A DNA stretch of 64,000 nucleotides, taken from positions 1-64,000 of the forward strand of contig NZ_BBJF01000004.1 in the NCBI RefSeq assembly GCF_000739735.1, given 5' to 3'. Positions 6,926 through 12,956 of this stretch are shown here, one piece after another (the first letter of the stretch is position 1; each line of letters begins with the position of its first letter). This DNA comes from Paraburkholderia ginsengisoli NBRC 100965 (GTDB lineage Bacteria; Pseudomonadota; Gammaproteobacteria; Burkholderiales; Burkholderiaceae). The notes under the pieces are model-generated. The model ran no database searches. It was given only the letters and a program-made list of their open reading frames with translations, and was not told where the DNA came from. The position numbers and the translations under genes were made by a program.

Positions 6926-8314
6926 TCAGAGCTGCTTCATCAGCACGAGCGACTTGCGCTGCCAGTTATAGAGTCTGCGGCGGTCTTCAGGCAGGTCGTC
7001 GACCGTGACCTTGACGAAGCCGCGCTTGAGGAACCAGTGTTCGGTGCGCGTGGTGAGCACGAAAATGCGCGTCAGGCCGCGCGCCCGCGCTCGCTGCTCG
7101 ATGCGCTTGAGCAGACGCTCGCCGTCGCCGGTGCCTTGCGCTTCGGGCGCGACCGTCAGGCACGCCATTTCGCCGATGCGCTCCTGCGGATACGGATACA
7201 GCGCCGCGCAGCCGAACAGCACGCCATCGTGCTCGATCACCGAGAAGTGATCGATATCGCGTTCGATCTGGTGGCGGCCGCGCCGCACGAGCGTCCCGTC
7301 CGCTTCGAGCGGCTCGATCAGCGAGAGAATGCCGCCGACGTCGTCCGGCGTCGCTTCGCGCAGGCTTTCGAGGTTCTCGTACGAGATCATCGTGCCGACG
7401 CCGTCGTGCAGGAACAGTTCGAGCAGCAGGCTGCCGTCGAGCGCGTAGGGGATGATGTGCGCCCGTGCGACGCCGCCGCGGCACGCGCGGATCGAATGCT
7501 TCAGATAGAAGCCAGCGTCGCCGGTGACTTCGCCGCTTTCGTGCAGCTTGTACGCGTCGTCGAGCGACAGTTCGCGCAGCAGTTCGGGGCCGTCTTCACC
7601 GGCTTCCATCAGGCCCGGCGTCTCGGTCAGGAACACGATCTTGTCGGCGCGCAGCGCGATCGCTGCCGCCGACGCGACGTCTTCCATGGACAGATTGAAC
7701 GCCTCGCCGGTGGGCGAGAAGCCGAGCGGCGACAACAGCACCAGCTTGCGGCTCGCGAGCGAGTGGCGGATCGAATCCGCGTCGATCTTGCGGACCACGC
7801 CGGTGTGCGCGAAGTCGACGCCGTCGAGAATGCCGACCGGGCGCGCCGTCACGAAATTGCCCGACACCACGCTGATGTGCGCGTGCGCCATCGGCGTGTT
7901 CGGCAAGCCCTGGCTGATCGCGGCCTCGATGTCCAGACGCACTTCGCCCGCCGCTTCTTTCGCGGATTCGAGCGCGCGCGCGTCGGTGATGCGCATGCCG
8001 TGCGAGAACTCGGACTCCACGCCGTGCAGGCTCATCTGCTCTTCGACCTGCGGTCGCGAGCCGTGCACCAGCACGATCTGGATGCCCATCGCCTGAAGCA
8101 ACGCGATGTCGGACACCAGCGCATTCAGGAGCCCCTGATGCACCACCTCGCCGCCGAAACCGACGACGAACGTCTTGTTACGGAATGCATGGATGTAGGG
8201 GGCGACTGAACGCATCCAGTCGACGAATTGCGCATGCTGTGCGAGGTTTTCCGTTGCTCCGGCGGGGGCCGGAACGCTCGCGGGCGCGGGGACGAGGTCG
8301 GTTTGGGAATTCAT
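6926..8314 (-). CDS. argA: Amino-acid N-acetyltransferase (N-acetylglutamate synthase)
   Basis: A 462-residue enzyme for the first committed step of arginine synthesis, acetyl-CoA plus glutamate giving N-acetylglutamate. An N-terminal amino-acid-kinase-like domain (KTFVVGFGGEVVHQG, then VLVHGSRPQVEEQM, roughly residues 40-290) is followed by a C-terminal GNAT domain (LTVAPEAQGTGDGERLLKRI, then LTTRTEHWFLKRGF). This is the classical ArgA architecture; the kinase-like domain normally carries arginine feedback inhibition. I chose the start at 8314 because the frame further upstream runs back into hrpA and is not ArgA-like. A later Met (MRSVAPYIHAFRN, codon 34) is possible. The start codon is only 23 bp from the divergent hrpA start, an unusually tight arrangement. 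Confidence 0.93.
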   Translation of the reverse strand: MNSQTDLVPAPASVPAPAGATENLAQHAQFVDWMRSVAPYIHAFRNKTFVVGFGGEVVHQGLLNALVSDIALLQAMGIQIVLVHGSRPQVEEQMSLHGVESEFSHGMRITDARALESAKEAAGEVRLDIEAAISQGLPNTPMAHAHISVVSGNFVTARPVGILDGVDFAHTGVVRKIDADSIRHSLASRKLVLLSPLGFSPTGEAFNLSMEDVASAAAIALRADKIVFLTETPGLMEAGEDGPELLRELSLDDAYKLHESGEVTGDAGFYLKHSIRACRGGVARAHIIPYALDGSLLLELFLHDGVGTMISYENLESLREATPDDVGGILSLIEPLEADGTLVRRGRHQIERDIDHFSVIEHDGVLFGCAALYPYPQERIGEMACLTVAPEAQGTGDGERLLKRIEQRARARGLTRIFVLTTRTEHWFLKRGFVKVTVDDLPEDRRRLYNWQRKSLVLMKQL

Positions 8315-8321
8315 GCCGGGG

Positions 8322-8329
8322 ATTATAAT
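8322..8329. promoter_or_regulatory. Self-complementary -10 element between argA and hrpA
   Basis: ATTATAAT is its own reverse complement, so a perfect TATAAT hexamer is present on both strands (8324-8329 forward, 8327-8322 reverse). It sits 8 bases before the hrpA ATG and 7 bases before the argA ATG. Any transcript starting the usual 6-8 bases downstream would have almost no leader. No convincing -35 box is seen on either side. Confidence 0.5.
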
Positions 8330-8337
8330 GCGCCCCC

Positions 8338-11300
8338 ATGTCGAATGTACCCAAAAGTCCCGCTGCGGCGAACGAGAATCCGGCGCCGGCCGCCGATCAG
8401 ATGAACACCGGCGACGCGAAGCGCCGTCCTGCGCAGGACACCGAGCCCAACACGCCGCACGCGGCGCGCGAACCGCATCGTGCGGGAGAAGGCGCGCAGG
8501 TGCCGGCGCAGGAAAATAAATCGCCGCGCGAGCGCGACTCGCGTGCGCGGCACACCGCCGGCAGCGGCGCTTCACAAGCTGCACGCGGTGACGTTCGCGC
8601 CAATCAGCAGAGCCGCGGGTCGGCGCCGGGCGGTGAGGCGCGGCGCGAAGCCGGCGCCCCCGCCCGGAAAGCGCCGCGAGAGGGCGGTGCCGAACGCGAT
8701 GGCGGGCGCCGCGAATCGCGGGAAGCGCATGAAGCAGGTGGGGCAGGCGGTTCGCGCGAGCTGCGTGAACCGCGTGAGCCACGCCTTCCCCGCGCCCCGC
8801 GAGCGGCGCGCGTCGTCGAACCGAATCCGATTCCGCCGATCACGTTCCCCGAAGCGCTGCCGGTCTCCGGCCGCCGCGACGAGATCGCCAAAGCGATCGC
8901 GGAGAATCAGGTGGTGATCGTGTCGGGTGAGACGGGCTCCGGCAAGACCACTCAGTTGCCGAAAATCTGCCTCGCGTTAGGGCGTGGGCTCGGCGCGGGC
9001 GGCGCGGGTCTGATCGGCCACACGCAGCCGCGCCGGATCGCCGCGTCGGCGACCGGGCGGCGCATTGCCGAAGAACTCGGCACGCCATTCGGCGAAGTGG
9101 TCGGCTACAAGGTGCGCTTCACCGACAACCTGTCGCCGGGCGCGTCCGTCAAGCTGATGACCGACGGCATCCTGCTCGCCGAAACGCAGACCGATCCGCT
9201 GCTCAAAGCGTACGACACGCTGATCATCGACGAAGCGCACGAGCGCAGCCTGAACATCGATTTCCTGCTCGGCTATCTGAAGGAAATTCTCGCGAAGCGT
9301 CCCGATCTGAAGCTGATCGTGACGTCGGCGACCATCGACGCCGATCGCTTCGCGCGCCATTTCGGCAGCGAAGAGAAACCCGCGCCGGTGATCGAGGTGA
9401 GCGGGCGGCTCTATCCGGTCGAGGTGCGTTATTGCCCGGTCGTCGAGGACAGCCCGGCGGTGAAGGCGGCGCAGGGGACGTCGTCTGGCGCATCGTCATC
9501 GCGTGGCGACAGGCCGAAGACCCAGCGCGAGACCGATCGCGATCTGATGGACGCGATCGTCGACGCGGTCGACGAACTGTGCCGCGAAGGTCCCGGCGAC
9601 GTGCTGGTGTTCCTGCCCGGCGAGCGCGAGATTCGCGATGCCGCCGAAGCGTTGCGCAAGCACCACCCGCCGCATACGGAAATCCTGCCGCTGTTCGCGC
9701 GGCTGTCCGCGGCCGAACAGGAGCGCGTGTTCCGCACGTCGAACGCGCGCCGTATCGTGCTGGCGACCAACGTTGCCGAAACCTCGCTGACGGTGCCGGG
9801 CATCCGCTACGTGGTCGACACCGGTCTCGCGCGCGTGAAGCGCTACTCGTATCGCAACAAGGTCGAGCAGCTGCAGGTCGAGTCGATTTCGCAGGCCGCC
9901 GCGAATCAGCGGGCCGGGCGCTGCGGCCGCGTCGCCGATGGCGTGTGCATTCGTCTCTACGAGGAAAGCGATTTCCAGGGCCGCGTGCGCTTCACCGATC
10001 CGGAGATTCTGCGCTCGTCGCTGGCGTCGGTGATCTTGCGGATGAAGTCGCTGCATCTGACCGCGATCGAAACCTTCCCCTTCATCGAGCCGCCGCCGGG
10101 CCGCGCGATCGCCGACGGTTACCAGTTGCTCAACGAGCTCGGCGCGGTCGACGACGACAACCAGCTCACGCCGCTCGGCCGCGAACTCGCGCGGCTGCCG
10201 CTCGATCCGCGCGTCGGCCGGATGATTCTCGCCGCGCGCGATCAGCAGGCGTTGAAGGAAGTGCTGATCATCGCCAGTGCGTTGTCGGTGCAGGATCCGC
10301 GCGACCGGCCGATCGAAGCGCAGGAGCAGGCCGACCAGGCGCATCGCCGTTTCGCCGACGAGCGCTCGGAATTTTTGCAGTGGCTAAAAATCTGGAACTG
10401 GTTCGAAGAGGCAATTGCGCACAAGAAGTCGAACAAGCAGCTGCACGAGGAGTGCCGCAAGAACTTCCTGTCGCAACTGCGGCTGCGGGAATGGCGCGAC
10501 GTGCACTCGCAATTGCTGACGGTGGTGCGCGAGCATGGCTGGCGCATCAACGACGCTGAGGCGACTTTCGAGCAGATCCATCTGGCGCTGCTGACCGGTC
10601 TGCTCGGCAACATCGGCCTGAAAGCCGACGACGAACCGTACTATCTCGGCGCGCGCGGCATCAAGTTCTATCTGTGGCCTGGCTCGGCGCTGGTGAAGAA
10701 GGCGGGCAAGTGGGTGATGGCCGCCGAACTGGTCGAGACGAGTCGTCTGTACGCGCGCTGCATCGCGAAGATCGAGCCCGAGTGGGTCGAGAAGATCGGC
10801 GCGCATCTGCTGAAGAAATCGCTTTCCGAGCCGCATTGGGAGAAGCGCGCGGCGCAGGTGTCCGCGTTCGAGCGCGCGATGCTCTATGGCCTGCCGATCT
10901 ATCACCGGCGGCGCGTGAGTTTCGGCAAACAGGACCCGGCGCGCGCGAGAGAGTTGTTCATTCGCGGCGCGCTGGTCGAAGGCGAGTTCGATACGAAGCT
11001 CGCGTTCTTCGCGCACAACCGCAAGCTGCTCGCCGACATCGAGCAACTGGAACACAAGTCGCGCCGTCAGGACGTGCTGGTCGACGACGAACTGATTTTC
11101 GCGTTCTACGATCAGGCGTTGCCTGGCGGCATTTACACCGGCGCGTCGTTCGAGCGCTGGTATCGCGACGAGGTGAAAAAGAGCGGCCAGCCGGAAGACA
11201 AGCTGCGCCTGCTGTATCTGTCGCGCGATGATCTGATGCGCCACGAAGCCGCCGGCGTGACGACCGATCTGTTCCCGAAACGGATGACGATGGCCGGCGT

Positions 11301-12795
11301 CGAGATGGCGCTCAGCTATCACTTCGAACCGGGCTCGCCGCGCGATGGCGTCACGCTCGCCGTGCCGCTCTACGCGCTCAATCAGGTCGACGCTCGCCGC
11401 TGCGAGTGGCTCGTGCCGGGCATGCTGAAAGAGAAGACGCAACTGTTACTGAAATCGTTGCCGCAGAAGTTGCGGCGGCATTGCGTGCCGTTGCCGGAGT
11501 ACGCGGCCGGTTTCGTCGATCGGCACAGCGGCCCGAAATTCGGCGCGGGCGGTTTGCTGGAGTCGTTGATCGCCGATATTCGCGAGCAGACCCAGGTCGC
11601 GATGAAGCAGTCGGACTTCAAGCTCGAAACCTTGCCGCCGCATCTGTTCATGAACTTCAAGATCGTCGACGAGCACGGGCGGCAGCTCGCGATGGGGCGC
11701 AATCTGTCGCAGCTACGCGCCGAACTCGGCGGGCAGGCGCAGCAGCATTTCCAGAAGATCGCGTCGAGCGCGGCGGGCGCGGCGTTGGCGGATGCGGGCG
11801 GCGGGGGTGTTGCGACGCCTGCGCAAGGAGCCGGTGCGGCAGGTGGGGCCGGTGTCGCGCGTGGCGGCGCTGCGCAGCGCGGCAAGGGCGCAGCGGTGGC
11901 CGGTCCGCAAACCGCGTTGCAAGAGGGGGCGGGGGGCACCGCGCTTTACGAAAAACTCACCACGTGGAATTTCGGCAAGCTTCCCGAGTTGCTCGAGATT
12001 CGCCGCGGCGGGCAGACGCTGTTCGGCTATCCGGCGCTGGTGGATCGCGGCACGCATTGCGATGTCGAAGTGTTCGATTCGCCGGATGAGGCCGCCCGGA
12101 TTCATCGCGCGGGATTGCGCCGGCTCTTCGCCTTGCAGTTGAAGGAACCGATCAAGTATCTGGAGAAGAACCTGCCCGGCCTGCGCGAAATGGCGATGCA
12201 GTTCATGCCGCGCGGCACGCAGGAAGAACTGCGCGACCAACTGATCGATACCGCGCTCGATCGCGCGTGTCTGCAAGACCCGCTGCCGGACGACGACGTC
12301 AGTTTCCACACGCGACGCGACGAGGGACGCAGCCGCCTGACGCTGCTCGCGCAGGAGATCGCGCGGCTGGTCGGGCAGATTCTCGGCGAATACGCGAGCG
12401 TGACGAAGAAGCTGGTGCAGGCGAAGTCGTTCACGGCCGCGTATGCCGACATGCAGAGTCAGCTGGATGGATTGATCGGTAAGCGCTTCGTGGTCGACAC
12501 GCCGTACGCGCAGTTGGCGCACTTTCCGCGCTATCTGAAGGGAATGGCGCTGCGTATCGACAAGCTGAAGGCGGAGCCGCCGCGCGACGCCCGGCAGTTT
12601 GCGGAGTTTGCGCCGCTGCTGCAGAACTATCAGCGTGCGGTGGCGCAGCGTGGGGGTGTGCTGGACCCGCGCTTGTCGGAGTTTCGCTGGCTGCTGGAGG
12701 AGTTGCGGATCTCGCTCTTTGCCCAGGAGTTGCGGACGCCGATGCCGGTTTCGGTGAAGCGGTTGTACAAGGTTTGGGAGTCGATGCAGCGGTGA
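8338..12795 (+). CDS. hrpA: DEAH-box ATP-dependent RNA helicase HrpA
   Basis: A 1485-residue helicase, longer than E. coli HrpA (about 1300). Residues 1 to about 155 are a low-complexity Ala/Arg/Gly/Glu/Pro extension. The helicase core follows: Walker A GETGSGKTTQ near residue 196, DEAH at 298-301, SAT in VTSATID, and the motif VI region QRAGRCGR. Helicase-associated and OB-fold regions and the long HrpA-specific C-terminal domain (DUF3418 type) come next. A second low-complexity Gly/Ala insert lies around residues 1140-1200. HrpA resolves stalled ribosomes and remodels structured RNA in the cytosol. The start at 8338 gives a near-leaderless message if the palindromic -10 is used; the next Met is codon 22 (8401). 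Confidence 0.95.
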   Translation: MSNVPKSPAAANENPAPAADQMNTGDAKRRPAQDTEPNTPHAAREPHRAGEGAQVPAQENKSPRERDSRARHTAGSGASQAARGDVRANQQSRGSAPGGEARREAGAPARKAPREGGAERDGGRRESREAHEAGGAGGSRELREPREPRLPRAPRAARVVEPNPIPPITFPEALPVSGRRDEIAKAIAENQVVIVSGETGSGKTTQLPKICLALGRGLGAGGAGLIGHTQPRRIAASATGRRIAEELGTPFGEVVGYKVRFTDNLSPGASVKLMTDGILLAETQTDPLLKAYDTLIIDEAHERSLNIDFLLGYLKEILAKRPDLKLIVTSATIDADRFARHFGSEEKPAPVIEVSGRLYPVEVRYCPVVEDSPAVKAAQGTSSGASSSRGDRPKTQRETDRDLMDAIVDAVDELCREGPGDVLVFLPGEREIRDAAEALRKHHPPHTEILPLFARLSAAEQERVFRTSNARRIVLATNVAETSLTVPGIRYVVDTGLARVKRYSYRNKVEQLQVESISQAAANQRAGRCGRVADGVCIRLYEESDFQGRVRFTDPEILRSSLASVILRMKSLHLTAIETFPFIEPPPGRAIADGYQLLNELGAVDDDNQLTPLGRELARLPLDPRVGRMILAARDQQALKEVLIIASALSVQDPRDRPIEAQEQADQAHRRFADERSEFLQWLKIWNWFEEAIAHKKSNKQLHEECRKNFLSQLRLREWRDVHSQLLTVVREHGWRINDAEATFEQIHLALLTGLLGNIGLKADDEPYYLGARGIKFYLWPGSALVKKAGKWVMAAELVETSRLYARCIAKIEPEWVEKIGAHLLKKSLSEPHWEKRAAQVSAFERAMLYGLPIYHRRRVSFGKQDPARARELFIRGALVEGEFDTKLAFFAHNRKLLADIEQLEHKSRRQDVLVDDELIFAFYDQALPGGIYTGASFERWYRDEVKKSGQPEDKLRLLYLSRDDLMRHEAAGVTTDLFPKRMTMAGVEMALSYHFEPGSPRDGVTLAVPLYALNQVDARRCEWLVPGMLKEKTQLLLKSLPQKLRRHCVPLPEYAAGFVDRHSGPKFGAGGLLESLIADIREQTQVAMKQSDFKLETLPPHLFMNFKIVDEHGRQLAMGRNLSQLRAELGGQAQQHFQKIASSAAGAALADAGGGGVATPAQGAGAAGGAGVARGGAAQRGKGAAVAGPQTALQEGAGGTALYEKLTTWNFGKLPELLEIRRGGQTLFGYPALVDRGTHCDVEVFDSPDEAARIHRAGLRRLFALQLKEPIKYLEKNLPGLREMAMQFMPRGTQEELRDQLIDTALDRACLQDPLPDDDVSFHTRRDEGRSRLTLLAQEIARLVGQILGEYASVTKKLVQAKSFTAAYADMQSQLDGLIGKRFVVDTPYAQLAHFPRYLKGMALRIDKLKAEPPRDARQFAEFAPLLQNYQRAVAQRGGVLDPRLSEFRWLLEELRISLFAQELRTPMPVSVKRLYKVWESMQR

Positions 12796-12884
12796 GTGGT
12801 CGGAGTTGATTCCGGCGTGGTGGAAGGGCAGGGGTGCTCGTTGTGCATTGTCTGTGTACTGCCGACGCGTTCTACACTCCTGAC

Positions 12885-12956
12885 GGCTTCGGCTTCGGCT
12901 TCGGCTTCGGCTTCGGCTTCGGCTTCGGCTTCGGCTTCGGCTTCGGCTTCGGCTTC
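12885..12956. repeat. Twelve tandem copies of GGCTTC
   Basis: An uninterrupted perfect hexamer array of 72 bp, bounded by GAC and CAGG. Because the unit is six bases, copy-number change would not shift any frame. It lies between the convergent ends of hrpA and the adhesin gene, about 90 bp past hrpA. Confidence 0.97.

Follow-up and report, generated by a model that had tools for sequence, protein, structure and literature searches.

What arrangement of promoter elements can serve two divergent genes whose start codons enclose only 23 bp? The question is raised by argA and hrpA in the window, that is, the whole stretch of 64,000 nucleotides analysed here. The gene for N-acetylglutamate synthase, argA, occupies 6926–8314 on the minus strand (462 aa; start ATG at 8314–8312), and its product carries AA_kinase and GNAT domains; hrpA, on the plus strand at 8338–12795 (1485 aa; start ATG at 8338–8340), encodes a DEAH-type RNA helicase with HA2, OB and DUF3418 domains, both assignments being made with Pfam. 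A perfect tandem repeat of the 6-bp unit CGGCTT, in 12.2 copies, lies directly downstream of hrpA (12884–12956).

The palindromic octamer in the argA–hrpA gap

The gap (8315–8337) contains the octamer ATTATAAT at 8322–8329, the sequence identical to its own reverse complement that the preliminary description of this DNA had reported there. It can be read directly as two perfect TATAAT hexamers, one per strand, that overlap by 4 bp, and it thereby has the overlapping opposite-strand -10 elements of a bidirectional promoter. Both start codons adjoin this box: the plus-strand hexamer (8324–8329) lies 8 nt from the hrpA ATG and the minus-strand hexamer (8322–8327) 7 nt from the argA ATG, the same distances as first described. 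We consider that ATTATAAT is probably the core of a bidirectional sigma-70 promoter of the type described by Warman, Grainger and colleagues, with both transcripts leaderless or nearly so. RNA polymerase bound in one orientation would start hrpA at or within about 1–2 nt of its ATG, and polymerase bound in the opposite orientation would give an argA start no more than about 2 nt from the ATG of that gene. One polymerase at a time would occupy the site, firing either argA or hrpA, and both mRNAs, leaderless or nearly so, would be translated without a Shine-Dalgarno sequence.

The octamer is rare. It occurs once in the window, against 0.05 matches expected from dinucleotide shuffles, and the same copy is the only one in the whole 6.54-Mb genome, where the control with reversed letters is found 6 times. 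Across 35 genomes of the same genus, ATTATAAT totals about 104 copies, of which about 35 are the argA–hrpA site itself; the reversed control totals about 161. The octamer looks depleted relative to the control, the more so when this site is subtracted, which would fit an avoidance of strong symmetric -10 sequences.

The remainder of the putative promoter is less conspicuous. At spacers of 16–18 bp the best -35 candidates match 2 of 6 consensus positions for hrpA and 3 of 6 for argA, about the level of shuffled DNA and in agreement with the weak -35 boxes of the preliminary description; the same search in all loci gave chance-level matches in both directions. A scan with the sigma-70 consensus returned no promoter-like site at the gap, because there is no recognisable -35, and the gap sequence contains neither an extended -10 nor a T at -18 in either direction. 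There is likewise no GGAG-like stretch on the argA side or the hrpA side, so that, with gaps of 7 and 8 nt, each gene has a -10 element 6–9 nt before its start codon and no Shine-Dalgarno sequence, as is characteristic of leaderless genes.

Between the box and the hrpA ATG lies the discriminator GCGCCCCC (8330–8337, plus strand), whose initial GC dinucleotide does not vary among 120 distinct sequences of the family, a set picked for having the box. The hrpA core, TATAAT-GCGCCCCC-A, matches TATAAT-GCGCCACC-A of rrnB P1 in an E. coli record at 14 of 15 positions: like rrnB P1, the hrpA side has TATAAT, a GC-rich discriminator beginning GCG, and an A nine bases downstream. Transcription from rrnB P1 starts nine bases after its -10 (PMC7822876), and because of this resemblance hrpA transcription could plausibly begin at the A of its own ATG (8338). 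Only the hrpA side combines a GC-rich discriminator with a purine at the ninth base past the -10. Unlike rrnB P1, however, that side has no recognised UP element or consensus-like -35, the -35 being at chance level and the flanks GC-rich, and the A in question opens the start codon of an mRNA. The rrn-like hrpA discriminator is also confined to a core clade, and Cupriavidus-like genomes and those of family f18 differ in this respect. By analogy, the likeness raises the possibility that the hrpA promoter is sensitive to ppGpp and DksA. On the argA side the discriminator is CCCCGGC (8315–8321, minus strand), and the predicted start is the A of the ATG (8314) or at most 2 nt upstream of it. In Burkholderia cenocepacia the -10 motif of mapped promoters lies on average at -8 to -16 (PMC4603805); with starts 7–9 nt past the box, neither mRNA would begin more than about 2 nt from its ATG.

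Conservation of the octamer in related bacteria

A first pass, by DNA similarity searches and a pattern scan of named genomes, found the box between argA and hrpA in Paraburkholderia, Burkholderia, Caballeronia, Trinickia, Mycetohabitans and Pandoraea. Since such searches may be biased toward loci that have retained the box, the family and the order were sampled a second time, starting from the ArgA protein. In this second sampling 17 genera of the family had ATTATAAT intact in the interval separating divergent argA and hrpA, and members of three further families of Burkholderiales (f8, f10 and f18) had it at the same position; it was absent from f4, f49, f20 and two of the sampled f10 genomes. 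Outside the family the divergent gene pair was limited to a handful of related families, and in 40 representatives drawn from other families, most of them more distant, no hrpA match was found within about 1.3 kb upstream of argA. Retention of the octamer in close relatives had been proposed as a check on the original idea, one palindromic -10 giving two near-leaderless mRNAs; the octamer is indeed retained there, and with its spacing it is conserved across families, so that the comparative evidence supports that idea well. To judge from these sequences, the layout of the argA–hrpA box appears to be conserved through much of the bacterial order.

The best-surviving alternative is that the octamer serves as a strong -10 for one gene only, the mirror-image TATAAT being incidental and the other gene being transcribed from inside its neighbour. 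Polynucleobacter-like genomes (g37), which retain TATAAT toward argA only, would suit such an arrangement, as would the fact that the -35 comparison favours neither direction. The pattern of conservation makes it unlikely, however. Of the base pairs in the octamer, the outer ones each serve one direction only, yet the full set of eight is intact across 17 genera, and both spacings to the start codons (6–7 and 7–8 nt) are likewise kept. Moreover, in three Pandoraea-like genomes (L393–L395) the octamer is replaced by ATTATATAAT, a palindrome 2 bp longer that again provides a perfect TATAAT on both strands.

Counting against our preferred reading, that of a two-way promoter with two near-leaderless mRNAs, are the several lineages that have lost one side of it: one half of the box in g37, the hrpA side in g43 and some f8 genomes, where hrpA has a leader and starts further from the box, and the argA side in g48, where no ATG adjoins the box on that side although the octamer and a near-leaderless hrpA are intact. 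One-sided leaders combined with an intact octamer suggest that it is the two-way -10 itself, and not leaderlessness, that is kept.

Two details of these variants may be recorded. In g48 (L400–L402, L405 and L406) the position of the usual argA start codon reads ATC, and the gene seems to begin at a later codon, perhaps a GTG. On the argA side of L393–L395, a mini-ORF of 8 codons (MFAHVHSC or MFAHVHPC) begins at the ATG lying 6 nt from the box, and its stop codon overlaps the apparent start codon of argA; it could encode a leaderless leader peptide coupled to argA.

Start codons and their distance from the box

The spacing was examined in 134 distinct loci containing the box and the conserved blocks of both proteins, a set picked for the box and so a test of spacing and not of presence. 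The first in-frame ATG of argA lies 6–7 nt from the box in all 134, and that of hrpA lies 7–8 nt from it in 129. In nearly all of the loci the ATG beside the box is in frame with the conserved domain despite large variation in length. In the relatives compared, the first seven codons are strongly conserved in argA (MNSQTDL, 8294–8314, minus strand) and conserved in hrpA (MSNVPKS, 8338–8358, plus strand), and in both genes the sequences diverge abruptly thereafter. They include codons ending in A or T, which are unusual in DNA as GC-rich as this. The seven codons of argA also form the region upstream of the putative hrpA promoter and those of hrpA the region upstream of the putative argA promoter; their conservation could be due to the polymerase footprint, to leaderless translation, or to both.

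The preliminary description had allowed for later start codons, at codon 22 of hrpA and codon 34 of argA, which would give both genes ordinary 5' untranslated regions of roughly 60–100 nt. The starts lying further from the box in g48 argA and in the hrpA genes of g43 and some f8 genomes fit this proposal, but we regard it as quite improbable for the locus at hand. It is contradicted by the conservation of codons 1–7 of both proteins followed by sharp divergence, by hrpA codon 22, which is not Met in most relatives, and by the in-frame position of the ATG beside the box in nearly all loci. In f18, furthermore, HrpA lacks the N-terminal extension, and the ATG 7 nt from the box leads directly into the helicase domain. 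The later start codons were rejected as not conserved. The extension itself (8359–8830 in the window) varies greatly between genera in length and sequence.

That the palindrome is instead an operator for a dimeric regulator is suggested by its perfect symmetry between divergent genes, but this is very improbable, because the 2-bp central insertion in ATTATATAAT changes the half-site spacing while preserving both -10 elements, the sequence matches the -10 consensus and sits where mapped starts require it (PMC4603805), and an operator alone would leave both genes with no visible promoter.

Comparison with known promoters and possible competition

The best descriptions of promoters with symmetric -10 elements come from enteric bacteria; in many such promoters one side yields an antisense RNA. 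The site described here resembles them (PMC12825309, PMC10268837) in that -10 elements on opposite strands overlap within one short site, that polymerase could bind in either orientation but not in both, and that the -35 is weak or absent. It is unlike them in that two perfect hexamers share 4 bp, in that the predicted products are two near-leaderless housekeeping mRNAs, and in that the site is conserved across families. The geometry of the overlap would place the argA and hrpA starts 21–24 bp apart. This falls inside the separation of 7–25 bp by which bidirectional pairs were defined in a Salmonella study (PMC10268837). In E. coli, however, the commonest separations between paired starts are 18, 10 or 23 bp (PMC12825309), and the predicted range, not being one of these commonest values, counts against the reading that we prefer.

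Leaderless mRNAs of B. cenocepacia (PMC4603805) and Cupriavidus metallidurans (PMC7563307) provide the other comparison. In B. cenocepacia the -10 motif of leaderless genes lies directly upstream of the start, and 4.67% of the primary starts in C. metallidurans are leaderless. As at argA and hrpA, a -10-like motif and not a Shine-Dalgarno sequence precedes the start codon, but those mRNAs were described gene by gene, whereas here one box would serve two genes. The literature searched contained no description of a bidirectional promoter leaderless on both sides, and a search of it for argA or hrpA start sites in Burkholderia or Cupriavidus found none.

Leaderless genes are not exceptional in the genome under study. 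The pattern TATAAT-N5-9-ATG has 19 exact matches in it, whereas the reversed control has 11, and about 8 of the 19, argA and hrpA included, open long reading frames of high GC3. Six other frames open 6–9 nt past a perfect TATAAT (L338, L341, L344, L345, L354 and L355), and from the look of their sequences they are likely ubiH-like, mutL, Fur-family, ubiC, murJ and MarR-family genes. Among all these reading frames, only argA and hrpA share a box.

Do the two genes compete for polymerase, and is arginine synthesis thereby tied to HrpA, as the preliminary description proposed? By the geometry of the predicted elements, binding in the two orientations must be mutually exclusive. Warman et al. (2026; PMC12825309) found, however, that basal activity was too low for competition at all five of the bidirectional promoters that they tested, and that basal bidirectional promoters show no competition unless one side is strong. 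The argA–hrpA site has no recognisable -35 in either direction, and any coupling of the two genes through polymerase competition may be weak. A bolder proposal, that the shared box is an ancient and selected coupling device, is speculative, and we give it little credence. Under it, a single site would allot initiation between argA and hrpA according to growth state, by way of the rrn-like hrpA discriminator, and both messages, being leaderless, would depend on the same non-canonical route of translation.

The argA–hrpA box is clean and deeply conserved, and it is probably an example of a kind of bidirectional promoter that is already known. If the interpretation preferred here is correct, one promoter box makes two leaderless housekeeping mRNAs. 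The box has been kept while the surrounding DNA changed, and it provides a way of asking, from natural sequences, whether selection acts on bidirectionality itself. Its variants in nature, namely the 10-bp palindrome, the one-sided leaders and the one-sided box, form a ready experimental series.
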